From: Flavobacterium sp.
Lineage (GTDB): Bacteria > Bacteroidota > Bacteroidia > Flavobacteriales > Flavobacteriaceae
Direction of reading: 5' to 3'
Assembly (NCBI RefSeq): GCF_027484205.1
Contig: NZ_JAIXUB010000013.1
Span: forward strand, 124,001 to 188,000
DNA length: 64,000 nucleotides
Part shown: positions 27,645 through 51,792 of the stretch, in pieces
How positions within the stretch are numbered: position 1 is the first letter of the stretch
How the letters are laid out: each line of letters opens with the position of its first letter
Notes under the pieces: model-generated
The model's database searches: none
Seen by the model: only the letters and a program-made list of their open reading frames with translations
What the model was told of the DNA's origin: nothing
Translations under genes and position numbers: made by a program

Positions 27645-28190
27645 ATGAAGAGCAACCACAGCGATTTTATTGCCATTTACAATCAATATAAAATATTGGT
27701 TTATAATGTTGCGTTGCATTACCTTCAAAATGTGGAAGATGCAGAAGAAATCACTCAAGATGTTTTTGTTCAAATACATAATTCACTGGCATCTTTTAAT
27801 GAAAAATCATCACTTAAAACTTGGATTTACAGAATCACAATTAACAAAAGTTTAGATTTTATCAAACATAAAAATAGTGTTAAGCGCTTTTTTATTTTTG
27901 GCAAAAAATCAGAAAATGAATTGGAATTAAATAACATTTCCAACTTTGAACATCCGGGAATAGAATTAGAAAATAAAGAAAATGCCGCAATACTTTTTAG
28001 TGTAATTAATGAATTGACAGAAAATCAAAAAACAGCTTTCATCCTGTCTAAAATAGATGGATTAAGTAATCCAGAAATTGCTGAAATTATGAACGTTAGC
28101 ATTTCATCTGTAGAATCATTGGTTTTTAGAGCAAAAACAATATTAAAAGAAAAATTGAGTAAAAAATTTGAAAATTACCGCAAGAAATAA
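27645..28190 (+). CDS. ECF sigma factor
   Basis: This 181-aa sigma-70 family protein has region 2 (NVEDAEEITQDVFVQIH, KTWIYRITINKSLDFIK) and region 4 (LTENQKTAFILSKIDGLSNPEIAEIMNVSISSVESLVFRAK), with no region 3. That is the extracytoplasmic-function layout. The start of the promoter for the next gene (ACCGCAAGAA) overlaps its last codons. The same promoter motif recurs before the YHYH gene, so this factor probably drives the downstream block and the YHYH block. No such motif was seen before the sigma gene itself. Confidence 0.92.
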   Translation: MKSNHSDFIAIYNQYKILVYNVALHYLQNVEDAEEITQDVFVQIHNSLASFNEKSSLKTWIYRITINKSLDFIKHKNSVKRFFIFGKKSENELELNNISNFEHPGIELENKENAAILFSVINELTENQKTAFILSKIDGLSNPEIAEIMNVSISSVESLVFRAKTILKEKLSKKFENYRKK

Positions 28191-28207
28191 ATAAAAGTTA
28201 CGTCTAA
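28179..28207 (+). promoter_or_regulatory. Predicted ECF sigma promoter 1
   Basis: CGCAAGAA, a 14-nt spacer and CGTCTAA lie across the end of the sigma gene and 49 bp before the anti-sigma-like gene. The -10 core CGTC is typical of ECF promoters. Motif and spacing are identical to those at 30696-30724. Confidence 0.7.
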
Positions 28208-28255
28208 TGTAAATGAGGAACAAATTGAAAAATTTGGAACTAAATTTTAAATAAA

Positions 28256-28522
28256 ATGGAAAAAGAAGATTTTATAAATAATATTTTAAATAGTGTCGAT
28301 GGAATTACATCTGTAACTCCAAGTGACATTGTTTTACAAAAAATTGAGCAACGAATAAAAGAATCCCAAATTTCAACTAGAACTTTATGGTTAGTTGCAG
28401 CATCAATTATAATTTTAGTTTCCTTAAATATCATTTTAATTAATGATAAATCAGGTTCAAATGAATCTGAAATTGCAAGTTTAGAGCAATCAATTAATAA
28501 GAGTAATCAATTATATAAGTAG
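28256..28522 (+). CDS. Small single-pass membrane protein, probable anti-sigma factor
   Basis: This 88-aa protein has a cytosolic N-terminal part of about 45 residues (MEKEDFINNILNSVDGITSV), one membrane helix (TLWLVAASIIILVSLNIILI) and a short periplasmic tail. The size, topology and position right after an ECF sigma gene suggest a membrane anti-sigma factor. It lacks a recognisable zinc anti-sigma motif, so the role is inferred from context. It is followed 2 nt later by the CpxP-like gene. Confidence 0.65.
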   Translation: MEKEDFINNILNSVDGITSVTPSDIVLQKIEQRIKESQISTRTLWLVAASIIILVSLNIILINDKSGSNESEIASLEQSINKSNQLYK

Positions 28523-28524
28523 TT

Positions 28525-28989
28525 ATGAACAAGACTAAAGTATTAGTATTTGCAGTAATTGCATTAGTAGCATTAAATTTTGGAATTCTTAGTTTTCTAT
28601 TTTTATCGAAAGGTAACGATGGTCCAAGAGGAAGAAAAATGCCAAGAGAAGTTGTAATAGAAAAACTTCATTTTGATAAAAATCAAATAGTTGCTTACGA
28701 AAAAACTATTCTTGTTCATCAAAAAAACATCAGAAATTTGGATGATTCTATAAGAGCTACAAAAAATGAATTGTATCAATTGTTAAACCATGAAAATATA
28801 GATAATAATAAAAAAGATAGTTTATTTTTAAAATTAGCAGATTATCAAAAACAAATTGAAACTACGCATTTTAATCATTTTCTAGAAATAAAAAAACTTT
28901 GTAAAAAAGAGCAATTATCTGATTACAAAAATTTAACGGAAGAATTGAGCAAAATCTTTTCACATCCAAGAAGACCAAAACATGAATAA
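28525..28989 (+). CDS. Periplasmic CpxP/Spy-like heavy-metal sensor protein
   Basis: This 154-aa protein has an N-terminal membrane anchor or signal (VLVFAVIALVALNFGILSFLFL) and a long helical periplasmic domain. The spaced helices and final segment (KKLCKKEQLSDYKNLTEEL) match the CpxP/Spy/CnrX-type fold. Such proteins bind metal or unfolded protein and tune an ECF or two-component response. Its last 8 nt overlap the MbnP-like gene. Together with the anti-sigma candidate it probably forms the sensing module. Confidence 0.75.
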   Translation: MNKTKVLVFAVIALVALNFGILSFLFLSKGNDGPRGRKMPREVVIEKLHFDKNQIVAYEKTILVHQKNIRNLDDSIRATKNELYQLLNHENIDNNKKDSLFLKLADYQKQIETTHFNHFLEIKKLCKKEQLSDYKNLTEELSKIFSHPRRPKHE

Positions 28990-29665
28990 AACTCTTTTTT
29001 ATTTCATTTTAAGTTTCCTTTTCTTTTTTAATGCATTTGCTCAAAAAGAAAAGGATTCTTTATTTTTTGATATTCAATTCAAATGGAAATCAGAACATTT
29101 AGAGTTAAATAAAAACTATGTCTCTGATAAGGACACACTGCAAATAAACGTAGTTAAATTTTATATTTCGGGAGTTGAAATAAATTATAACGACGGAACT
29201 ATTTTTAGAGAAAAAGATAGTTATCATTTGATAAATGTTGAACATTTTAACTCTTTTCCAATTACCAAAAAAGAAAATAAAGAAATTTCTAAAATAAGTT
29301 TTAATATAGGAATTGATAGTACAGCGAGTGTTTCTGGAGCTTTGTCAGGCGATTTAGATTTACAAAACGGAATGTATTGGGCTTGGCAAAGCGGTTATAT
29401 TAATATGAAAATAGAAGGAAAAAGTGGCAGTTGCAAAACAAGAAAAAATGCTTTTCAGTTTCATATTGGTGGTTATTTGAAGCCAAATTATGCTTTGAGA
29501 AAAATCACTATAAATTGTGATAAACAAAATCAAATTGATTTAGTAATGGATTTATCAAAATTATTTGAACAAATAAATCTTTCAGAGCTCAATACAATAA
29601 TGATTCCTTGTGAAAAAGCAATGAATTTTGCTGATTTAACGACTAAAATATTTTTTGTTGAATGA
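28982..29665 (+). CDS. MbnP-family copper-associated protein
   Basis: This 227-aa secreted protein has a signal peptide (MNKTLFYFILSFLFFFNAFAQ). The Trp-rich signature GMYWAWQSGYINMKIEG is that of MbnP. In characterised MbnP the partner MbnH oxidises a Trp to kynurenine, and the product binds copper. Two Cys pairs may exist (GSCKTRK, NCDKQ, PCEKA). The gene overlaps both neighbours, ending 4 nt into the mbnH-like gene, as expected for a functional pair. Which Trp might be modified cannot be told from sequence. Confidence 0.82.
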   Translation: MNKTLFYFILSFLFFFNAFAQKEKDSLFFDIQFKWKSEHLELNKNYVSDKDTLQINVVKFYISGVEINYNDGTIFREKDSYHLINVEHFNSFPITKKENKEISKISFNIGIDSTASVSGALSGDLDLQNGMYWAWQSGYINMKIEGKSGSCKTRKNAFQFHIGGYLKPNYALRKITINCDKQNQIDLVMDLSKLFEQINLSELNTIMIPCEKAMNFADLTTKIFFVE

Positions 29666-30687
29666 GAAAAATTGAAATTATATTAATTTTAGGTGTTATA
29701 TTTTTTACTGCTTTAGGATTTTCGAATTTGGACTTCACTCCTATTTATTTTGAAATTCCAAAAGGATTTCCAAAACCGACCTATGATTTTAAAATCAACC
29801 CACTAACTGAAGAAGGTTTTCAATTAGGAAGGAAATTATTTTACGATCCTATAGTTTCAAAAGATTCTACCATTTCGTGCGCTAGTTGTCATTTGCAACA
29901 AACTGGTTTTACACATGTTGACCATGATTTGAGTCATGGTATTGAAGGAAAAATTGGAACCCGAAATTCATTGACTTTACAAAATTTAGCTTGGAGCAAA
30001 ACGTTTATGTGGGATGGCGGTGTAAATCATTTAGACATTCAATATATTGCTCCTATTACTAGTGAAGTAGAAATGGATGAAACGTTAGAAAATGTTGTAA
30101 CAAAATTAAATAATAATAAAGAATATCAAGAATTATTTCAAAAAGCATTTGGTACAAAAAAAATCACAGGACAATTGACTTTAAAAGCAATTTCGCAATT
30201 TGTAGTTTCTTTAACAACATCAAATTCTAAATATGATAAGGTTTTAAGAAAAGAAGAAAAATTTACCGAAATGGAGCAAAAAGGATATAGTTTGTTTAGA
30301 AAACATTGTGCATCATGCCATACAGAACCTTTATTTTCATCGAATGAATTTAAAAACAATGGATTGCCGATAGATGAAACATTAAATGATTTTGGCAGAA
30401 TGAAAATTACAAAAAATCCAAAAGATTCACTTAAGTTTAAAGTGCCAACATTAAGAAATATTGAATTTACTTTTCCATACATGCATGATGGAAGATTTAA
30501 AACATTGAATGAAGTAATTAAACATTATAATTCTGGGATAAAAAAAAGTAAAACTTTATCTAAAGAATTGTATGAACCATTTGATATAACAAATAATCAA
30601 AAAGTTGAATTAATTTCGTTTTTAAAAACTTTAACCGATAAAGAGTTTTTATTTAATCGTAGATACAGCTTCCCGAAAAAAAATTAA
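29662..30687 (+). CDS. Di-haem cytochrome c peroxidase/MauG family, MbnH-like
   Basis: This 341-aa protein has an N-terminal signal or anchor and two haem c motifs: CASCH at about 73 and CASCH at about 216. The DGGVNHLDIQYIAPI and TLRNIEFTFPYMHDGRF segments are typical of the CCP/MauG superfamily. Because it overlaps the MbnP-like gene by 4 nt it is best read as an MbnH, which oxidises Trp in MbnP. A classical peroxidase is the alternative. Haem attachment implies export to the periplasm. Confidence 0.85.
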   Translation: MRKIEIILILGVIFFTALGFSNLDFTPIYFEIPKGFPKPTYDFKINPLTEEGFQLGRKLFYDPIVSKDSTISCASCHLQQTGFTHVDHDLSHGIEGKIGTRNSLTLQNLAWSKTFMWDGGVNHLDIQYIAPITSEVEMDETLENVVTKLNNNKEYQELFQKAFGTKKITGQLTLKAISQFVVSLTTSNSKYDKVLRKEEKFTEMEQKGYSLFRKHCASCHTEPLFSSNEFKNNGLPIDETLNDFGRMKITKNPKDSLKFKVPTLRNIEFTFPYMHDGRFKTLNEVIKHYNSGIKKSKTLSKELYEPFDITNNQKVELISFLKTLTDKEFLFNRRYSFPKKN

Positions 30688-30695
30688 AAAAGTAT

Positions 30696-30724
30696 CGCAA
30701 GAATTAATTAATTGTTTCGTCTAA
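30696..30724 (+). promoter_or_regulatory. Predicted ECF sigma promoter 2
   Basis: CGCAAGAA, a 14-nt spacer and CGTCTAA lie 21 bp before the YHYH gene. The only other copy noticed is at 28179-28207, with exactly the same spacing. Confidence 0.7.
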
Positions 30725-30745: not shown

Positions 30746-32074
30746 ATGAAAAAAAGCCTTATTCTTCTATTATTTATTCAACAATTATTGTATTCGCAAA
30801 CTAATCCTGCGATTACAAAATGGTTGCAAAATGTAACCATAACAGGTAATTATTATCAAACTGGTAATTCAACACCAATTTCAAATGGTATTCTAGTAAA
30901 TTGCCAACAAGTTAGATACTCAACAAACTGGGTTTATGTTAACGCAACCGGAATTCCTGCATATCCAGTTGGAGTTTTTACAGGTGATGGTAATACAAAT
31001 CAAGCTGGAAATCAAAATGCAATTTATAAATTTCCATTAAATCCTACTCAAAATACCGGAACATCAACAGCAACGACAGGCGGAAACATTGGTGTTTTTA
31101 TAAATGGTGTCTCATTATTTGATTATAGAGATGGTGTTGCTTGGAATAATTCTACAAATGCATTATGTGGAGGTCCAGGAAATCCTAATTGTCCTGGTGG
31201 TCCAATGGCAACTCAAGCATGGAATAGAGATGCAATTCCTGCTGAAAAATTAGGATTTGACTGCGCTAAAGGACATCCTGCAGGAACAAATTATCATCAT
31301 CATCAAAATCCGAGTGCTTTCAAATATGATTTGAATTTAATTTCAACTATTTGTAACACATATGATTCTGAAGGATTGTATACAATAAATACAAGTCAAC
31401 ATTCACCACTAATTGGTTTTGCCTATGATGGATTTCCAATATATGGTGCATATGCCTATACAAATACAAATGGAACTGGTGGAATAAGTAGAATGAAATC
31501 TAGTTATCAATTAAAAAGTCAAACCACTAGAGCAAATGGTCCAGCTGTAAATTCAACTTACTTTAATGGATATTTTAAAGAAGATTATGAATATATTGCT
31601 CATCCATCAGATCCAACTTATTTAGATTCACACAACGGAAGATTTTGTATAACTCCAGAATATCCTAGCGGAATTTATTGCTATTTTGCCACTGTAGATG
31701 CTAATCATAACTCAGCTTATCCCTATGTAGTTGGACCAACATATTATGGGAATGTTACGGGTGGAAAAGTTACAACAGTTTCTGAATCAACTACTACTTA
31801 TTTAAGTAACGATAGTTTTTCTTTAAATAAAACGAACATTAAAGTTTATCCAAATCCATCAACAAATTTTATAACTATTCAAACAGATTTTGCAGAAAAT
31901 AATTTAAAAGTTGAAATTATAAATGAAATTGGTCAAATTGTTGCAAAAGGTACTATTTTTCAAGGAACAACAATGTGTTCGATAGAGACTGATGCTTTAT
32001 ATAATGGAGTATATTTTGTCAAAGTTTCAAATAATTCTGATAGCTTTAGCAGTAAAATTATTATCAATAATTAG
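30746..32074 (+). CDS. Secreted YHYH-domain protein with T9SS sorting signal
   Basis: The 442-aa protein has a signal peptide (MKKSLILLLFIQQLLYSQ). A YHYH domain shows GTNYHHHQNPSAFKYDL and several conserved His/Cys stretches (DCAKGHPAG, SDPTYLDSHNGRFC). A C-terminal type A sorting domain follows (about 370-442, IKVYPNPSTNFITI). It is probably exported to the cell surface by T9SS. The function of YHYH domains is not established, but the clustered His suggests metal binding. The upstream ECF-type promoter places it in the same regulon as the MbnP/MbnH pair. Confidence 0.85.
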   Translation: MKKSLILLLFIQQLLYSQTNPAITKWLQNVTITGNYYQTGNSTPISNGILVNCQQVRYSTNWVYVNATGIPAYPVGVFTGDGNTNQAGNQNAIYKFPLNPTQNTGTSTATTGGNIGVFINGVSLFDYRDGVAWNNSTNALCGGPGNPNCPGGPMATQAWNRDAIPAEKLGFDCAKGHPAGTNYHHHQNPSAFKYDLNLISTICNTYDSEGLYTINTSQHSPLIGFAYDGFPIYGAYAYTNTNGTGGISRMKSSYQLKSQTTRANGPAVNSTYFNGYFKEDYEYIAHPSDPTYLDSHNGRFCITPEYPSGIYCYFATVDANHNSAYPYVVGPTYYGNVTGGKVTTVSESTTTYLSNDSFSLNKTNIKVYPNPSTNFITIQTDFAENNLKVEIINEIGQIVAKGTIFQGTTMCSIETDALYNGVYFVKVSNNSDSFSSKIIINN

Positions 32075-32112: not shown

Positions 32113-33297
32113 ATGCTAAAAAAAATCTCATCGTTACTAATAATCACATTATCATTTTCTTGTGGAAGTGATAATGATAGCGAATATGTTCCTGTTGAAA
32201 CTTATCCAAATGTTACTGCTGCTTTTGGAGACAACATTAACCTATCAAATCTAGCCAATTATGCTAATCAAACTGTACCTGCATATGTTACAAAAAACAA
32301 TACCGGTTCTAATTTAATAACGGATAAAGGAGCTACTTTAGGAAGGGTTTTATTTTATGATAAAAAATTATCTTCCAATAATACTATTTCTTGTGCTAGC
32401 TGTCACCATCAAGCAAATGGTTTTAGTGATATTGCTATTTCAAGTCAAGGTGTAAACGGAACTACAGGAAGACATTCAATGCGATTAATAAATAATCGAT
32501 TTGCAAATGAAACAAAATTCTTTTGGGATGAAAGAGCCATTAATTTAGAAACTCAAACCACAATGCCTATTAAAGATCATGGAGAAATGGGTTATAGTGG
32601 TACAAATGGTGATGAAGCATTTTCTGGATTAATTACTAAACTATCAGCGATTGGTTATTATAAAGAACTATTCAAATTTGTTTATGGTTCAGAGGAAATT
32701 ACTGAAAACAAAATGCAACTTGCGTTAGCTCAATTTATCAAAAGTATCCAATCTTTTGATTCAAAGTATGATGCAGGAAGAGCTTTAGCAACTAACGAAG
32801 GTCAACCTTTTACTAATTTTACTACACAGGAAAATCAAGGAAAAAATTTATTTTTAACGCCACCTGTTTTTGATGCGACTGGAAATAGAACTTCTGGAGG
32901 ATTAGGTTGTGCAGGTTGTCATGCAGCACCAGAATTTGATATTGACCCAAACTCATTAAGCAATGGAATTGGTGGTTCAATAGCTGGAGGTGCAGATTTT
33001 ACTAATACTCGAGCTCCATCTTTAAGAGATATTGCAAAACCGGATGGAACACCAAATGGACCAATGATGCATACAGGTGTCATAACAACACTTCAAGCAG
33101 CAATAGGACATTATGGTAATTTAACAACGGCTGCAATAAATAATACAAATTTAGATCCAAGACTAAAACCAAATGGATTTGGACAACAATTACATTTGAC
33201 AGCACCAGAAGTTAATGCCGTTATTGCTTTTCTAAAAACACTTTCAGGAACAAATGTTTATACGGATAGTAAGTGGTCTAATCCATTCTTAAATTAA
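32113..33297 (+). CDS. Di-haem cytochrome c peroxidase lipoprotein
   Basis: This 394-aa lipoprotein (lipobox ITLSFSCGSD) has two haem c motifs, CASCH at about 94 and CAGCH at about 266. It shows the CCP family pattern RFANETKFFWDERAINLETQ and MMHTGVITTLQAAIGHYG. It is a second member of the family alongside the MbnH-like protein and is probably co-transcribed with the YHYH gene (38 bp apart). It might reduce peroxide or oxidise an exported partner. A strong terminator ends the block. Confidence 0.85.
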   Translation: MLKKISSLLIITLSFSCGSDNDSEYVPVETYPNVTAAFGDNINLSNLANYANQTVPAYVTKNNTGSNLITDKGATLGRVLFYDKKLSSNNTISCASCHHQANGFSDIAISSQGVNGTTGRHSMRLINNRFANETKFFWDERAINLETQTTMPIKDHGEMGYSGTNGDEAFSGLITKLSAIGYYKELFKFVYGSEEITENKMQLALAQFIKSIQSFDSKYDAGRALATNEGQPFTNFTTQENQGKNLFLTPPVFDATGNRTSGGLGCAGCHAAPEFDIDPNSLSNGIGGSIAGGADFTNTRAPSLRDIAKPDGTPNGPMMHTGVITTLQAAIGHYGNLTTAAINNTNLDPRLKPNGFGQQLHLTAPEVNAVIAFLKTLSGTNVYTDSKWSNPFLN

Positions 33298-33313: not shown

Positions 33314-33349
33314 AAAAAAAGAGCTTTCAATATTGAAAGCTCTTTTTTT
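33314..33349. terminator. Bidirectional terminator between the peroxidase gene and sucD
   Basis: The palindrome GAGCTTTCAATATTGAAAGC...TC is perfect over 22 bp, with A and T tracts on the two sides. It serves both convergent genes. Confidence 0.9.
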
Positions 33350-43378: not shown

Positions 43379-46300
43379 ATGAGAAAAAAACTTTTACTTC
43401 TGTTAGTGTTACTAAACACAATGCTTTACGCTCAAAAAACTACTGAATTCAATGATGACTTTCTTAACAATATATTTGACAATTATGGAAACAGATATTC
43501 TTTACAAGATTTACAATTAAAAAAAGACCGTAATCAACAAAACGAATCTAGATTTATAGATAATACCTGTGATTCTGGAATATTCAGACTTCATTTTGAT
43601 ACAGGTTCAGGAATGATAGATGGCGAGCATGTTGCTGCAGCTGCAAGAAGAGCTGTTGTATGTCAAGTTTTTCATGACATAAGCGAGTTTTTGAATACTC
43701 CTCTAAAAACAAACGGATTAAATAATAGAGTTGAAATTTGGGTGAGAAATTCTAGTGCTTTAGTTGGAACTAATATTTTAGGTCAGGCATCAGGATTTTA
43801 TAGTGTTCCTCTCAATCCAACTGCTGCAAATGTTAATGGAGGAATAATTGACAATGAAATTTGGAAAACAATACAAACAGGTTTGGACTCTTACAGAAAT
43901 ATTGCTTCTAGTTTTTCAATGTTAAACTTTGGAGAAGTTACTAATTCAGGTTCATACTTTCATGGAATGTTATTAATTAATCCATCTATAAATTGGAATT
44001 TAGATTTATCAGCTAATCCACCGCCATTAACTAAAGATTTATATACAGTCGTTTTACATGAAGTAACACATGCATTAGGTATTGTTAGTTTGATTGACGC
44101 AAATGGAAATTCAACATTAGGTAATGGAAGTTTTAATTATTATACAAGATATGATACTTTTCTTAGAGATTCAAATGGAATCAATTTAATTACAAATAAT
44201 ACAACATGTGAAATGTATAATTATACTTTTACTAATAATGTAAATATTTTGCATCCTAATTGTAGTAATCCTTCGGGATTACAATCTCCTAACATTATTG
44301 CTGATGAAACTGATGACTGTAATACGACAATCCGCTTCAACAATTTACCCGTTTATAGACCAACTTGTTTTGAAAATGGTAGTAGTTTGAGTCATTTTGA
44401 AGATGAATGTTTTACAAATTCAATTGGACTTCCAAATGGCGATAACAATTACTTTGTCATGAGTAATGCATTAGCAAATAATGCAAAAAGATTTTTAACA
44501 CCCGAAGAACGTAATGTTCTATGTCAGTTAGGTTACACTACAAATCAAACCTACTCTATAAACGGGAATGAAGTCTTTGATTATGGAAATGGTTGCCAAG
44601 GAATTAGAATAGCAGGTGTTAATGATGGATTAGATTTGTCAACCGGAAATTATCTTTATAGACCTATACAAGGTCAAGATTTTATATTCCCAATAGCCAC
44701 AAATAATATTTTAAATAATGACATTTCTTCATCATCTAATATTGGCTTTACATGCTTAGAGGATGTGTATGATATAAATGCTTATATACCAACTACTTCA
44801 GGAAATGCAACAACAACAGTAATTTTTAATAGTAGTCAAATAGGATTGCATTTGTTACGATACATTCCAATTGATCTGAACACTAACGAGTTAGGCAATA
44901 TTACCTACATATATCTATTTGTTGAAACACCGAATGTTCACAATGGAGGAGTTTGTGATATACCACCATCTGTTTGTAACTTAGTTAGAAATGGTGATTT
45001 TGAATTTTTTGAAGGATTGTCTGCACCCAATCTTATTGTTAGCCCAACTGGTTCAGTATGTTTTTGGAACAGAGCTAATAATGGAACACCTGATTATTTT
45101 AGACCTAATCATCCATATATAAACAACAGAATCCCTTGTAATTCTCTTGGTGATCAAGAAGTTAACAGTGGTAATTCTTATATAGGAATAGGATTAGGAA
45201 ACAATGCAAATGAAAATATTTCAACTCTATTAAATGAAACATTATTACCTAATACAGAATACACATTAACCTTCAATGTTTCTCTTGCTGATGGTTTAAG
45301 AAGAATATCAAGACCAATACAAGTTTATCTCCGCAATGGAATTCAAACTTATCCTGGAATGGCTGATATTCCTTTAATAAACAATACTAATGAACTTTTG
45401 ATAAACACTTCTGCTATCAATGACTTTTCAGGATGGACAACAATTACATTAACATTTAATACTGGAAATAGAGCTAATTTAAATGCTTTGTATATTGGAG
45501 GATTTAATACATTAAGCATCCCTAATACAATTAATCCAATAAACTCTATAACTACAAACTGCACTTTTACTACTTATAACAATCCTAGTGGCACATATTA
45601 TTATTTAGACAATGTTAGATTAGTAAGAAAAGAAGATAGCAATCTAAATTTACCAGTTAATATTTGTTTAAATGAAACATTAAATAATCTAAATCAATTT
45701 ATTGAATTAGCTAATCTAAACGGTACTTTTACAGGAAATGGTGTCACAGGAAATACTTTTGATGCTACAACGGCTGGTATTGGAATTCATACAATTACAT
45801 ATACATATCAAAACAATCTTGGTTGTGAAATGGTAATAACTGATACAATTGAAGTTCTTCCTGGTAACAATGCTGGAACATTATCAGGAAACCAAAACAT
45901 CTTTACAAATCAAACGACAACAATTACATCAACTGAAACTGGCGGAACTTGGTCTTCAAGCGATACTTCGATTGCAACTGTTGATGCAAATGGTGTTGTA
46001 ACTCCAATAACTGCAAGTGTTGTATCTATTTTATATACTGATAGTAATTCACCTAATTGTCCTCCAGACGTTGAGAGTATTATAATAACAATTCAAGACT
46101 TATGTCAAAATGCAACATCTTGGAACGGTACATCATGGAGTAATGGTACTCCTAGCATAACAACATATGTTGAGATTACTGGTGATTATGATATGAGTTT
46201 AAACACAAGCCTTCTAAGTTTTGATGCTTGTCGAGTTCGAGTAGTTAGCCCAGCGAGAGTGGTTGTTGCGGCTTCTAAGTATGTAAATATTAATTATGAA

Positions 46301-49300
46301 CTTGTAGTGGAATCTGGAGCTACATTTGAAGTTAATGATGATGCTTCATTAGTACAAATAAATAATCAAAATAATAATCAAGGTAATATTATTTATCATA
46401 GAGATGTAATGGTTAACCAGTTTGATTACGTTTACTGGTCATCACCAATTAGTAATTTTAATATAAATAATCTTTCTCCTGCGACATCTCCATCACTTAT
46501 TTTTAGATGGAATCCTAATGCTACAAATCCAAATGGTAGCTCGGGATATTGGATAAATGCTAATAATTCCATTATGGAAGCAGGAAAAGGATATATCATT
46601 AGAGTTCCAATGAGTTATGCACCTTCACCAGATCAAAACTTTACAGCTACTTTTTCAAATGGTATACCAAATAATGGAATTATTCATAAAGCTGTAGGTA
46701 GAGGAGATTATGTAGGTGCTGATATTCCTATTAGTAATAGTAGTCCAATTACCTCAATTTCAGATAATTTTAATTTAATTGGAAATCCATATCCTAGTGC
46801 AATCGATCCAGAATTATTTTTAGATGACCCAGATAATATTAATGTTATTGACGGATGCCTTTATTTGTGGAAACATGGCATAGGACTTAGTGCAACAGAA
46901 GTAAGTCCTTTCTACGCATCTTATCAACAAAATTATTCTGTAAATGATTATGACACATACAACAGTACGGGTACACAAAGTGGACCAGGTGTATTAAAAG
47001 TTGCTGGAGGACAAGGGTTCTTTGTTATTATGAAAGATGAGGCATCTACAGTTCTTGAATCTGGTAATACTCATTTTGTTACTTTTAGAAATGAAATGAG
47101 GGATAAAACATTTAATAACAATAATTTTTATAGAAATTCAAACGTAAACTCAACAACTAATCCAGTAGAGAAACACAGAATATGGTTAGATTTAGCTAAT
47201 TCTAATAATGAATCGATTAGAACTTTAATTGGATATGTAACTGGTGCGACAATGCTAAGAGATCGTTCTTATGATGCTCCAACGCAAGTTTCAAATTTGT
47301 TTTCATTTTACTCTTTAATAGGAAATGAAAAATTAAACATACAAGGTAGATCGCTCCCATTCGATAATAATGATATAGTTCCTATAGGCATGAATATAAC
47401 TGCAAACGGAAATTATACCTTTGCAATTTATACAACAGATGGAATTTTTAATCAAAATCAAAATATTTATATTTATGATTCTGTTTTAGATAGTTATCAT
47501 AACATAAAGGTTGCACCATACACTTTCTATGCAACAGTTGGTAGATATGATGACCGTTTTAAGGTAGTATATAAACTTCCAACGCCAACATTTGATGAAA
47601 TTTCACCTGTATGTAATGGAACAACAATAAACGCCTTACCAACAATTTCTAATAATGGCATATTAGGTTCATGGTCACCAGCTATAAATAATACACAAAC
47701 AACTACTTACACTTTTACACCAAATGAAGATGTAAACAATACCACAACATTAACAATAAATATTTTACAAGGAACAACATATTATCAAGATAGCGATAAT
47801 GATGGTTATGGAAATCCGAATGTAAATCTGCAATCTTGTGAAGGTGCTCCAAGTGGTTATGTAACTTTAGGAACTGATTGCGATGATACTAATAACTTAA
47901 TTCATCCAAATGCTGTTGATGTTTGTTATGACGGTATTGATAATGATTGTAACGGAATTATTGATAATTCATGTGTTCCAATTACTGGTTCATTACCTAC
48001 ATCAATTTGTGGAACAACACTTTCAGGTTGGTATTCAACAATAACTGCAAATTGGACAAATTTTGCACAAGGATATCGTTTTAAAATCACAAAAGTTGAT
48101 ATGGTTACTAATGAGCCATTAGCACCAGCTGTCATTGTCGATAGACCTGTAAATAACATTTCATTAGCTAACGTTCCGGGAACTACATATAACTCAAGAT
48201 ATATGATTGAAATAGCTGTTAAATATAATAATGTTTGGCAACCATTTTATGGTCCAGCTTGTTTTGTAAACACTCCTAATCCTGTTGCAACAATAGGAAC
48301 ACATTGTGGCAGTACATTAACAGCAATGAATCAATGGATTTATACTTCACCAGTTTCTAACGTTACAGCTTATAAATTTAGAGTTACTAGAATAATTGAC
48401 GGAGTTCCAACAGGTATTTCTCAAGAAACAACTCAACCTACAAATAGATTTAACATGACACAATTATCAGGAATTTTATATAATTGTACTTATAAAGTTG
48501 AAGTTTCGCTAAGAAATACTGACGGAACATTTTTACCATATAATGTACCATGCAACGTAACTACGCCAAATATTCCTATTCCTCAAATTGAATGTGTATC
48601 AACTAATTTGGCCGCAACTAATTCTTATATAAATGCTTATTATTTATCAAGCGCAATGTATTATCGTTTTGTAGTAGAAAATTTGAGTACAAATCAAATA
48701 GGAATTTATGATAGCACTACACGTCAATTAAGACTAACTGGTATTACAAATTATTCACCAGTGCTTTCTACACCATTTGTAACCTATAATACGTCATATA
48801 AAGTTAAAGTTGCCATACTTCCTTCTGCTAATGAAGTAGGTGAATTTAGTTCAGAATGTATCTTTACTACACCACCATTTCCTGTAACGCAACTTCAAAC
48901 AAGTCAATGTAATTATACAGCAAATAGTAATACTGAATATATCTATGCTAATATTGTTAGTGGTGTTTCTCAATACAAATTTAGACTGACAAATACTTCA
49001 CTTGGATATTCTCAATTTGCTTTAAGACCTTTAAGAGCTTTTTCATTAAATATGTTTACTGGACTTCAATCTGGTACAACTTATTCTGTAGATGTAAGTG
49101 TTTTAATTAATGGAATTTGGGGTCCATTTGGAAATGCATGTAATATTACTACTCCAGGAAGTATAGCAAGAACAAATACACCATCAACATTAAAAAATAG
49201 TTTTGATGTAAAAGTAGTTCCAAATCCATTTTCTGAAAATTTTGAGATAAAAGTTACCTCACCTTCAAATGAAATATTGAAAATTAAAGTTTTTGATAAT

Positions 49301-49444
49301 TTAGGAAGACTTTTAGACGATTTTGAATCTACAATTGAAAATTTAAATCAAAGTAGTATTGGAAACAAATATCTTTCAGGTGTTTACAACATAATTATTC
49401 AACAAAATGATGAAGTTAAAACACTTAAAGTAATTAAAAGATAA
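43379..49444 (+). CDS. Giant secreted zincin-like multidomain protein, T9SS cargo
   Basis: This 2021-aa protein has a signal peptide (MRKKLLLLLVLLNTMLYAQ). An N-terminal metalloprotease-like region follows, with LHEVTHALGIVS (HExxH near 227-231). The middle contains Big2-like Ig domains and large beta-rich segments. A MopE-type metal-binding motif (about 1468-1535, DSDNDGYGNPN and DNDCNGIIDNSC) comes next, then about four or five fibronectin-like repeats, then a T9SS type A domain (last 75 residues). The third zinc ligand of metzincins (HExxHxxGxxH) is Ser in the 11-residue form, so activity is uncertain. It is probably a surface protein. Confidence 0.85.
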   Translation: MRKKLLLLLVLLNTMLYAQKTTEFNDDFLNNIFDNYGNRYSLQDLQLKKDRNQQNESRFIDNTCDSGIFRLHFDTGSGMIDGEHVAAAARRAVVCQVFHDISEFLNTPLKTNGLNNRVEIWVRNSSALVGTNILGQASGFYSVPLNPTAANVNGGIIDNEIWKTIQTGLDSYRNIASSFSMLNFGEVTNSGSYFHGMLLINPSINWNLDLSANPPPLTKDLYTVVLHEVTHALGIVSLIDANGNSTLGNGSFNYYTRYDTFLRDSNGINLITNNTTCEMYNYTFTNNVNILHPNCSNPSGLQSPNIIADETDDCNTTIRFNNLPVYRPTCFENGSSLSHFEDECFTNSIGLPNGDNNYFVMSNALANNAKRFLTPEERNVLCQLGYTTNQTYSINGNEVFDYGNGCQGIRIAGVNDGLDLSTGNYLYRPIQGQDFIFPIATNNILNNDISSSSNIGFTCLEDVYDINAYIPTTSGNATTTVIFNSSQIGLHLLRYIPIDLNTNELGNITYIYLFVETPNVHNGGVCDIPPSVCNLVRNGDFEFFEGLSAPNLIVSPTGSVCFWNRANNGTPDYFRPNHPYINNRIPCNSLGDQEVNSGNSYIGIGLGNNANENISTLLNETLLPNTEYTLTFNVSLADGLRRISRPIQVYLRNGIQTYPGMADIPLINNTNELLINTSAINDFSGWTTITLTFNTGNRANLNALYIGGFNTLSIPNTINPINSITTNCTFTTYNNPSGTYYYLDNVRLVRKEDSNLNLPVNICLNETLNNLNQFIELANLNGTFTGNGVTGNTFDATTAGIGIHTITYTYQNNLGCEMVITDTIEVLPGNNAGTLSGNQNIFTNQTTTITSTETGGTWSSSDTSIATVDANGVVTPITASVVSILYTDSNSPNCPPDVESIIITIQDLCQNATSWNGTSWSNGTPSITTYVEITGDYDMSLNTSLLSFDACRVRVVSPARVVVAASKYVNINYELVVESGATFEVNDDASLVQINNQNNNQGNIIYHRDVMVNQFDYVYWSSPISNFNINNLSPATSPSLIFRWNPNATNPNGSSGYWINANNSIMEAGKGYIIRVPMSYAPSPDQNFTATFSNGIPNNGIIHKAVGRGDYVGADIPISNSSPITSISDNFNLIGNPYPSAIDPELFLDDPDNINVIDGCLYLWKHGIGLSATEVSPFYASYQQNYSVNDYDTYNSTGTQSGPGVLKVAGGQGFFVIMKDEASTVLESGNTHFVTFRNEMRDKTFNNNNFYRNSNVNSTTNPVEKHRIWLDLANSNNESIRTLIGYVTGATMLRDRSYDAPTQVSNLFSFYSLIGNEKLNIQGRSLPFDNNDIVPIGMNITANGNYTFAIYTTDGIFNQNQNIYIYDSVLDSYHNIKVAPYTFYATVGRYDDRFKVVYKLPTPTFDEISPVCNGTTINALPTISNNGILGSWSPAINNTQTTTYTFTPNEDVNNTTTLTINILQGTTYYQDSDNDGYGNPNVNLQSCEGAPSGYVTLGTDCDDTNNLIHPNAVDVCYDGIDNDCNGIIDNSCVPITGSLPTSICGTTLSGWYSTITANWTNFAQGYRFKITKVDMVTNEPLAPAVIVDRPVNNISLANVPGTTYNSRYMIEIAVKYNNVWQPFYGPACFVNTPNPVATIGTHCGSTLTAMNQWIYTSPVSNVTAYKFRVTRIIDGVPTGISQETTQPTNRFNMTQLSGILYNCTYKVEVSLRNTDGTFLPYNVPCNVTTPNIPIPQIECVSTNLAATNSYINAYYLSSAMYYRFVVENLSTNQIGIYDSTTRQLRLTGITNYSPVLSTPFVTYNTSYKVKVAILPSANEVGEFSSECIFTTPPFPVTQLQTSQCNYTANSNTEYIYANIVSGVSQYKFRLTNTSLGYSQFALRPLRAFSLNMFTGLQSGTTYSVDVSVLINGIWGPFGNACNITTPGSIARTNTPSTLKNSFDVKVVPNPFSENFEIKVTSPSNEILKIKVFDNLGRLLDDFESTIENLNQSSIGNKYLSGVYNIIIQQNDEVKTLKVIKR

Positions 49445-50208: not shown

Positions 50209-51792
50209 ATGGATAAAATTAAAATACTTTGGGTGGACGACGAAATTGATTTGTTAAAACCTCACATCCTATTTTTAGAAAAGAAAAATTATGAAGTTAC
50301 CACCTGTAATAATGGTCGTGATGCTGTAGATATTTTTGCCGAAAACAATTTTGATATTGTTTTTCTAGATGAAAATATGCCCGGAATGAGTGGTTTAGAA
50401 ACACTTTCAGAAATAAAAGAAAAAAAATCTTCAACGCCAGTAATCATGATTACAAAAAGTGAAGAAGAATATATAATGGAGGAAGCAATTGGCTCTAAAA
50501 TTGCCGATTATCTTATCAAACCAGTAAATCCAAATCAGATTTTATTGAGTTTGAAAAAGAATTTAGACCATTCAAGATTAGTATCCGAGAAAACAACTTT
50601 AGATTATCAGAAAGAGTTTAGAAAAATTGCAATGGAAATGGCAATGGTAAATTCCTATGAAGATTGGATTGAACTTTATAAAAAACTATTATTTTGGGAA
50701 TTAGAACTTGAAAATATTGAAGATTCTAATTTAATTGATATTCTTGAATCTCAAAAAGTGGAAGCTAACTCGCAATTTGGTAAGTTTATAGAACGAAATT
50801 ATGAAGATTGGTTCGAACCAAAAGCAGAAACCCGAGGCAAAGCCGAACAGAGCAAAGCTAAACCAATTCAATCCCACACACTTTTCAGAGAATTAGTTGT
50901 TCCTGAATTGGTAAAAAAAGATAAGCCAGTTCTTTTTGTAGTTATCGATAATCTTCGCTACGATCAATGGAAAGCGATGGAAAGTACTGTAAATAATTAT
51001 TACAAACTTGAGAAGGAAACACCTTATTTTGCAATGCTTCCTACAGCTACACAATATGCAAGAAATGCCATATTTTCGGGATTAACACCTTTAGAAATGG
51101 AAAAACAATTTCCGCAATATTGGAAAAATGATATTGAAGATGGCGGAAAAAACTTGTATGAAGCCGAATTTTTAACAGCTCATTTAAAACGTTTGGGATT
51201 AAATCTAAAACAAGATTATTTTAAAATTACAAATCTCGCTGGTGGAAAAAAATTGGCTGATAATTTTAGAAGCTTAAAAGACAATGATTTGGTGACTGTA
51301 GTTTACAATTTTGTTGATATGCTGTCACACGCAAAAACTGAAATGGATGTTGTAAAAGAATTAGCATCAGATGATAAAGCGTATCGTTCCTTAACTTTAA
51401 GTTGGTTTAAAAATTCACCGCTTTTAGAGATTATTCAACAAGCGCAAAAACTTGGTTTTAAATTAATTATAACCACAGACCACGGAACAATAAATGTAAA
51501 AAATCCTTCAAAAGTTATTGGAGATAAAAACACAAGTTTAAATCTTAGATACAAAACGGGAAGAAGTTTAACCTATGAAGATAAAGATGTTTATGTTGTA
51601 AAAGACCCGAAGAAAATTGGACTTCCTGCTATAAATATGAGTAGTTCTTTTATCTTTGCAAAAAATGATTATTTCTTGGCTTATGTCAATAATTATAATC
51701 ATTATGTGAGTTATTACAGAAATACCTATCAACACGGAGGAATATCTTTAGAAGAGGTTATTGTACCTTTTTTGGTTTTTAATCCGAGGTAA
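50209..51792 (+). CDS. porX: PorX, response regulator with PglZ domain
   Basis: This 527-aa protein has a receiver domain (ILWVDDEIDLL; phospho-acceptor region IVFLDENMPGMSG). A helical linker follows, then an alkaline-phosphatase-like PglZ domain (VLFVVIDNLRYDQWK, LIITTDHGTINV). In Bacteroidota this is PorX, which with the kinase PorY controls T9SS function. The linker near residues 205-222 has an unusual Ala/Lys/Glu/Gln stretch (KAETRGKAEQSKAKP) with higher GC than its surroundings. The T9SS cargo genes in this window fit. Confidence 0.92.
   Translation: MDKIKILWVDDEIDLLKPHILFLEKKNYEVTTCNNGRDAVDIFAENNFDIVFLDENMPGMSGLETLSEIKEKKSSTPVIMITKSEEEYIMEEAIGSKIADYLIKPVNPNQILLSLKKNLDHSRLVSEKTTLDYQKEFRKIAMEMAMVNSYEDWIELYKKLLFWELELENIEDSNLIDILESQKVEANSQFGKFIERNYEDWFEPKAETRGKAEQSKAKPIQSHTLFRELVVPELVKKDKPVLFVVIDNLRYDQWKAMESTVNNYYKLEKETPYFAMLPTATQYARNAIFSGLTPLEMEKQFPQYWKNDIEDGGKNLYEAEFLTAHLKRLGLNLKQDYFKITNLAGGKKLADNFRSLKDNDLVTVVYNFVDMLSHAKTEMDVVKELASDDKAYRSLTLSWFKNSPLLEIIQQAQKLGFKLIITTDHGTINVKNPSKVIGDKNTSLNLRYKTGRSLTYEDKDVYVVKDPKKIGLPAINMSSSFIFAKNDYFLAYVNNYNHYVSYYRNTYQHGGISLEEVIVPFLVFNPR

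Follow-up and report, generated by a model that had tools for sequence, protein, structure and literature searches.

In the CnrYXH system of Cupriavidus metallidurans, which answers to nickel and cobalt, an extracytoplasmic function (ECF) sigma factor drives two promoters, cnrYp before the regulator genes and cnrCp before the effector genes (PMC9045368). Positive autoregulation is usual among ECF sigma factors, and their canonical promoters have a -10 box with CGT and a -35 box with AAC (PMC8103513). We analysed a stretch of 64,000 nucleotides from Flavobacterium sp. (assembly GCF_027484205.1, contig NZ_JAIXUB010000013.1, positions 124,001 to 188,000), hereafter the window, in whose coordinates positions are given. 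An earlier note on this DNA had proposed that two ECF-type promoters with identical sequence and spacing bracket a metal-stress regulon and are served by the sigma factor encoded beside them. Our comparative sequence analysis makes it very probable that the locus comprises a dedicated ECF sigma factor, two promoters, a copper-flavoured regulon and negative-feedback wiring. Conservation, co-occurrence, action at a distance and covariation between residues and bases together strongly support the partnership between sigma factor and promoters, and bear out that part of the note. The central features are the following.

27645..28190, + strand: ECF sigma factor, 181 amino acids (Pfam Sigma70_r2, PF04542, and r4_2, PF08281)
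28179..28207, + strand: promoter A, CGCAAGAA-N14-CGTCTAA, predicted to drive the anti-sigma, sensor, mbnP and mbnH genes
30696..30724, + strand: promoter B, CGCAAGAA-N14-CGTCTAA, predicted to drive yhyh and ccp2

Scanning the window for CGCAAGAA-N14-CGTCTAA returned exact matches at these two sites, as the note had described, with spacers unlike each other and no further site at three mismatches or fewer. The -10 box, CGTCTAA, contains the canonical CGT, but the -35 box, GCAAGAA, is without AAC. At site A the -35 box is made of the final sigma codons, CGC AAG AAA TAA (R-K-K and the stop codon, at 28188-28190), and the -10 box is located beyond the stop; the reported overlap with the end of the sigma gene is thus correct. 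Site B lies just 3' of the mbnH stop codon (30685-30687), about 21 nucleotides 5' of the start codon of the YHYH gene (30746). The word 'bracket' needs amending: both sites are real, but they precede two successive transcription units instead of flanking one block. The genome-wide scan that the note had suggested found only two exact copies of the 13-base core, GCAAGAA-N14-CGTCTA, in the 3.6-Mb genome, both at this locus. The sole copy with one mismatch, on another contig (C29:62142), falls within the coding frame of an unrelated gene (by eye, RodA/FtsW-like) and was dismissed as chance, and the 43 matches with two mismatches, against 69 for the reversed pattern, represent background only.

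Searching with MbnH, we retrieved 72 related loci. Both sites recur in the Flavobacterium loci with the 14-bp spacing, while the sequence of the spacer diverges. Of 42 distinct loci whose sigma factor is 60% or more identical, 37 have site A with at most one mismatch in its 14 bases. The consensus of 36 non-redundant site B orthologs is (C/T)GCAAGAAT..CGTCTAA, with boxes that hardly vary and a variable, weakly AT-biased spacer, although these orthologs were chosen by similarity (three mismatches or fewer), which somewhat favours the boxes. We then considered co-occurrence in 400 genomes of the genus, defining sigma orthologs by a natural gap in the match list (E ~1e-42 to 1e-53) and counting fragments. 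The exact core motif is present in 65 genomes and the sigma ortholog in 66: 53 have both, 12 the motif only and 13 the sigma factor only (Fisher exact test, p = 1e-41). In total there are 100 motif sites, against 22 for the reversed pattern; the 334 sigma-negative genomes hold 12 of them, a number similar to the 22 reversed-pattern sites in all 400 genomes. Of the 88 sites in sigma-positive genomes, 44 coincide with the sigma 3' end, 29 lie 2.5-5 kb downstream of it and 15 are placed elsewhere. The association also holds at a distance. In one genome (G584) the mbnP-mbnH-yhyh block lies 410 kb away from the sigma gene, and exact sites are still found at the sigma gene, at mbnP and at yhyh; G702 has a similar arrangement. 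Conversely, no site was found at nine mbnP/mbnH loci in records without a close sigma factor (best match E >1e-17, or none). A close relative (L192:950-3200, G454) that has lost mbnP, mbnH and yhyh has a promoter spacer of 15, not 14.

More distant loci have an altered -35 box that is identical at both promoters of a locus: GAAGGAAT in L082 and L110, and GAGGGAT in L115-L117. We collected 88 pairs of sigma factor and promoter A with -35 positions 2 and 4 left free. Among all sigma columns, association with these two positions is strongest for residue F161 and next strongest for S154, the remaining columns acting as a control on the same phylogeny. Four of the five changes at residue 154 fall on branches where -35 position 4 changes (P ~2e-5, from a FastTree topology and simple parsimony). 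Aligned on the FRA motif, S154 and F161 correspond to G168 and F175 of E. coli RpoE (sigmaE), both listed among its -35 recognition residues (PMC3464611). A simpler rule, by which F161 would predict A at -35 position 4, broke down on new loci, as H occurs with A (L234, L236) and F with G (L247, L248, L250), and was replaced by the two-residue association. Among distant sigma relatives (L090, L092, L094, L097-L099, L237, L242, L243) we observed GCAAG(T/A)(T/A)-N14-CATCT(T/A)A just past the sigma stop codon; hence the -10 box diverges too, from CGTC to CATC.

These patterns bear on two other explanations of the sites. Both could be operators of another DNA-binding regulator, with transcription by the housekeeping sigma factor, since a dimeric protein might bind such a conserved pair of boxes. 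This is very unlikely: the element is asymmetric, resembles -35 and -10 boxes at fixed spacing with the canonical ECF CGTC in the -10, tracks the sigma gene across genomes, and has a -35 box that covaries with recognition-helix residues equivalent to sigmaE contacts. Moreover, no + strand match to the Bacteroidota housekeeping pattern TTG-N20-TAnnTTTG overlaps either site; the scan of the window for this pattern showed no excess over chance and is otherwise uninformative. Alternatively, site A might be a by-product of a conserved sigma C-terminus (R-K-K), leaving site B as the only real promoter. The -35 box of site A is indeed coding, but the -10 box past the stop is equally conserved. A basic [RK][RK] tail ends 44 of the 61 sigma factors whose -35 box overlaps the gene, against 2 of the 19 whose promoter begins at or after the stop. 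The tail follows the overlap, which indicates that the DNA element writes the sigma C-terminus and that R-K-K is the by-product. In L082 and L110, furthermore, the -35 box becomes GAAGGAA together with the tail, in step with the noncoding site B. We regard this second alternative as extremely improbable and retain two promoters read by the encoded sigma factor.

The genes placed under the two promoters, and the end of the second unit, are as follows.

28256..28522, + strand: putative minimal anti-sigma, 88 amino acids, a function suggested by its place and shape
28525..28989, + strand: predicted CnrX-like membrane-anchored periplasmic sensor, 154 amino acids (weak Metal_resist match, PF13801; AF2 fold)
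28982..29665, + strand: MbnP, predicted copper-binding partner protein (PF20243, E=1.3e-43, above cutoff)
29662..30687, + strand: MbnH, di-haem MauG-type enzyme (PF03150, above cutoff; TIGR04039, E=8e-67)
30746..32074, + strand: YHYH-domain protein with a type IX secretion system (T9SS) tail (PF14240, E=2e-57; PF18962)
32113..33297, + strand: ccp2, second di-haem MauG/CCP-type lipoprotein (PF03150)
33314..33349, + strand: intrinsic terminator ending the yhyh-ccp2 unit (16-pair stem, T run)

The sigma factor has sigma2 and sigma4 domains only (Pfam), and its profile matches the structures of AlgU, RpoE and CnrH. The 88-residue protein has an N-terminal cytoplasmic part, a single transmembrane segment and a short tail ending NQLY(K), and its position and form are kept in 26 loci. 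The AF2 model of the sensor (pLDDT 88.8) shows an N-terminal membrane helix (residues 3-27) and a helical bundle. Its 14 best PDB matches are all CnrX or NccX, with TM-scores of up to 0.77 on the target, and CpxP, ZraP and Spy rank behind. Conserved residues H65, H118 and C126 are candidate metal ligands. The MbnP and MbnH families are encoded by adjacent genes, and the matches to TIGR04039 (NCBIfam) and TIGR04052 fall below their curated cutoffs for the MbnH/MbnP pair. In the YHYH protein, H177, Y183, H184 and H186 are invariant. Its model has low confidence (pLDDT 70.7, and below 50 for residues 152-205, which contain the YHYH motif), and in a fold search most matches were to Ig-like folds or covered the secretion tail. 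A divergent second MbnP is encoded in the same genome (G000:C30:40744-41184, L056), with no motif nearby. Elsewhere in the window we observed a 2021-residue protein (43379-49444) that has a putative metal-binding motif of the MopE type and weakly matches a T9SS tail, and a PorX-like response regulator of type IX secretion with a PglZ domain (50209-51792).

The link between the YHYH protein and MbnP/MbnH that the note had drawn from the shared promoter holds and can be extended. Most remote sites that we read in sigma-positive genomes (at L169, L174, L178, L180 and L182) precede YHYH, CotH-kinase/lamin-tail-domain (with or without T9SS tails) or multicopper-oxidase units, one type of unit combining a multicopper oxidase, a thioredoxin-like protein and YHYH. 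A minority of the remote sites (e.g. L168, L172 and L179) lie in or near unrelated genes and were set aside as chance-like. A second architecture (L187-L191 and L194, where family scans covered part of the members) consists of sigma factor, anti-sigma, sensor, short YHYH protein, MORN-repeat protein and SCO1/SenC, without MbnP; several of these loci have an additional motif before the YHYH gene. In L170 and L192, ccp2 is found immediately 3' of the sensor gene. The common theme of the regulon, judged from family names, would be copper: MbnP/MbnH and YHYH here, multicopper oxidase and SCO1 in relatives. Our literature search turned up no paper linking YHYH to copper. CotH-kinase/lamin-tail-domain proteins recur as targets (L173, L176, L177, L180, L186), most of them with T9SS tails and once accompanied by VTC and DUF4956 genes.

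Because the -35 box of promoter A lies in the last sigma codons, this promoter would drive the anti-sigma and the sensor but not the sigma factor itself. No site is found 5' of the sigma gene in the window, and an upstream site with one mismatch or fewer occurs in just 2 of 42 close orthologs. The wiring thus suggests negative feedback via the anti-sigma and the sensor, instead of the usual autoactivation. Neither this wiring nor the likeness to CnrYXH figures in the note. Positive autoregulation is common but not universal in ECFs, so it is not a requirement for membership. We propose the following mechanism. The sigma factor (27645-28190) would recognise (C/T)GCAAGAAT-N13-CGTCTAA, region 4.2 (around S154 and F161) reading the -35 box and region 2 the CGTC of the -10 box. 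At rest it would be held by the 88-residue membrane anti-sigma, which the CnrX-like periplasmic sensor would restrain in turn. Binding of a metal by the sensor, most likely periplasmic copper, would release the sigma factor, which would then transcribe unit A (anti-sigma, sensor, mbnP and mbnH) and unit B (yhyh and ccp2). The products would be exported proteins that handle copper: MbnH would modify MbnP, the type IX system would carry YHYH to the cell surface, and ccp2 would supply a second di-haem enzyme. Activation would raise the inhibitor and the sensor, not the sigma factor, and thereby include its own shut-off. Of this scheme, the motif, the pairing of sigma factor and promoters, the make-up of the regulon and the wiring are read from sequence, and the action of anti-sigma and sensor, the metal and the enzyme roles are inferred.

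Several observations weigh against this reading. Locus L068, from a metagenome-assembled genome, has a site with one mismatch, but the only sigma factor found in that genome is 40% identical. The 13 sigma-positive genomes without the exact motif are a further exception; those whose loci we read mostly carry variants with one mismatch or 15-bp spacing, and a few are truncated or could not be resolved. The covariation P depends on the tree and the simple parsimony given above. Sites upstream of the sigma gene occur in a few lineages (L083, L183, L196), and hence the negative feedback is not universal. The 88-residue anti-sigma candidate matches nothing in Pfam, NCBIfam or PDB, including CnrY. 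The fold matches of the sensor to CnrX/NccX have weak E-values (~0.02-0.1), so that the likeness rests on TM-score and consistency. The metal ligands of CnrX form an HxxxH motif. This motif is not conserved as such in the sensor, and the metal and its binding site may therefore differ from those of CnrX.

The nature of the signal is where other accounts deserve most attention. Because CpxP and Spy appear among the weaker fold matches, Spy also figures in the hidden Markov model matches of the sensor, and MbnH/CCP-type enzymes use peroxide, the sensor might behave as a CpxP/Spy-like chaperone and answer redox or envelope stress, not metal. We think this unlikely, given that CnrX and NccX outrank both proteins, that the set of sigma, anti-sigma and sensor genes matches the Cnr components and that copper proteins recur in the regulon. 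A response to copper starvation, with MbnP/MbnH and surface YHYH serving copper acquisition, is a possible but rather doubtful alternative to a response to excess. It would fit the similar pair CorA/CorB, which is repressed by copper, and the fact that MbnP/MbnH can adjoin methanobactin operons (PMC3621798). However, CnrX-type sensors activate on metal binding, and the co-regulated multicopper oxidase suits detoxification equally well. Regarding the 'metal-stress' regulon of the note, the predicted fold of the sensor, nearest to CnrX, and the copper-themed genes point in that direction, while induction by metal would be a prediction from these features.

Recognisable class I anti-sigmas accompany 6% of Bacteroidota ECFs, compared with 32% on average (PMC7406223), and ECF promoter prediction depends on autoregulated ECFs (PMC8103513). 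A system such as this one, with no recognisable anti-sigma, no autoregulation and a promoter hidden in coding sequence, would be missed by such methods. Its promoter, regulon and specificity residues could nonetheless be read by comparing sequences. Within the literature that we searched, this is the first regulatory context for YHYH proteins, to which no function has been assigned, and the system offers a handle on MbnP/MbnH, which have been termed 'mysterious partners' (PMC3621798). The natural variants of -35 box and recognition helix would, if true, be ready-made orthogonal pairs of sigma factor and promoter. We give even chances to a broader view that unites these points: throughout Bacteroidota, a CnrX-gated response to copper would have the coding end of the sigma gene as its own target promoter, purely negative feedback and YHYH surface proteins as the conserved output, and the variants would form orthogonal pairs.

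Among known systems, the locus most resembles a CnrYXH system rewired in Bacteroidota. We do not claim membership, because the sigma factor is not closest to CnrH and because sigma binding and metal response are only predicted. Both systems have an ECF sigma factor, a very short anti-sigma (here a candidate) with a single transmembrane segment and an anchored sensor of CnrX fold (here predicted), and in both, regulator genes and effector genes each have a promoter ahead of them. The 88-residue protein has the size and layout of CnrY, a class II anti-sigma, but no sequence match to it, and its binding of the sigma factor is predicted. Unlike CnrYXH, the gene order here is H-Y-X (versus Y-X-H), the promoter inside the sigma 3' end leaves the sigma factor outside its own regulon, and the effectors are MbnP, MbnH and YHYH, versus a resistance-nodulation-division (RND) efflux pump. 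The sigma factor is also nearer AlgU (E=7e-37) than CnrH (E=1e-19), its best PDB sequence matches being AlgU and RpoE. With ECFs of the RpoE/AlgU type it shares the sigma2-sigma4 architecture and the CGTC-type -10 box, but the -35 box GCAAGAA is without the usual AAC, the sigma factor is apparently not autoactivating and no class I (RseA-type) domain could be detected in the anti-sigma candidate. As in CorA/CorB and MopE-like systems, both MbnP and MbnH families are present in adjacent genes; here, however, the pair is not linked to methanobactin synthesis but is probably under dedicated ECF/CnrX-like control and tied to a T9SS-secreted YHYH protein.

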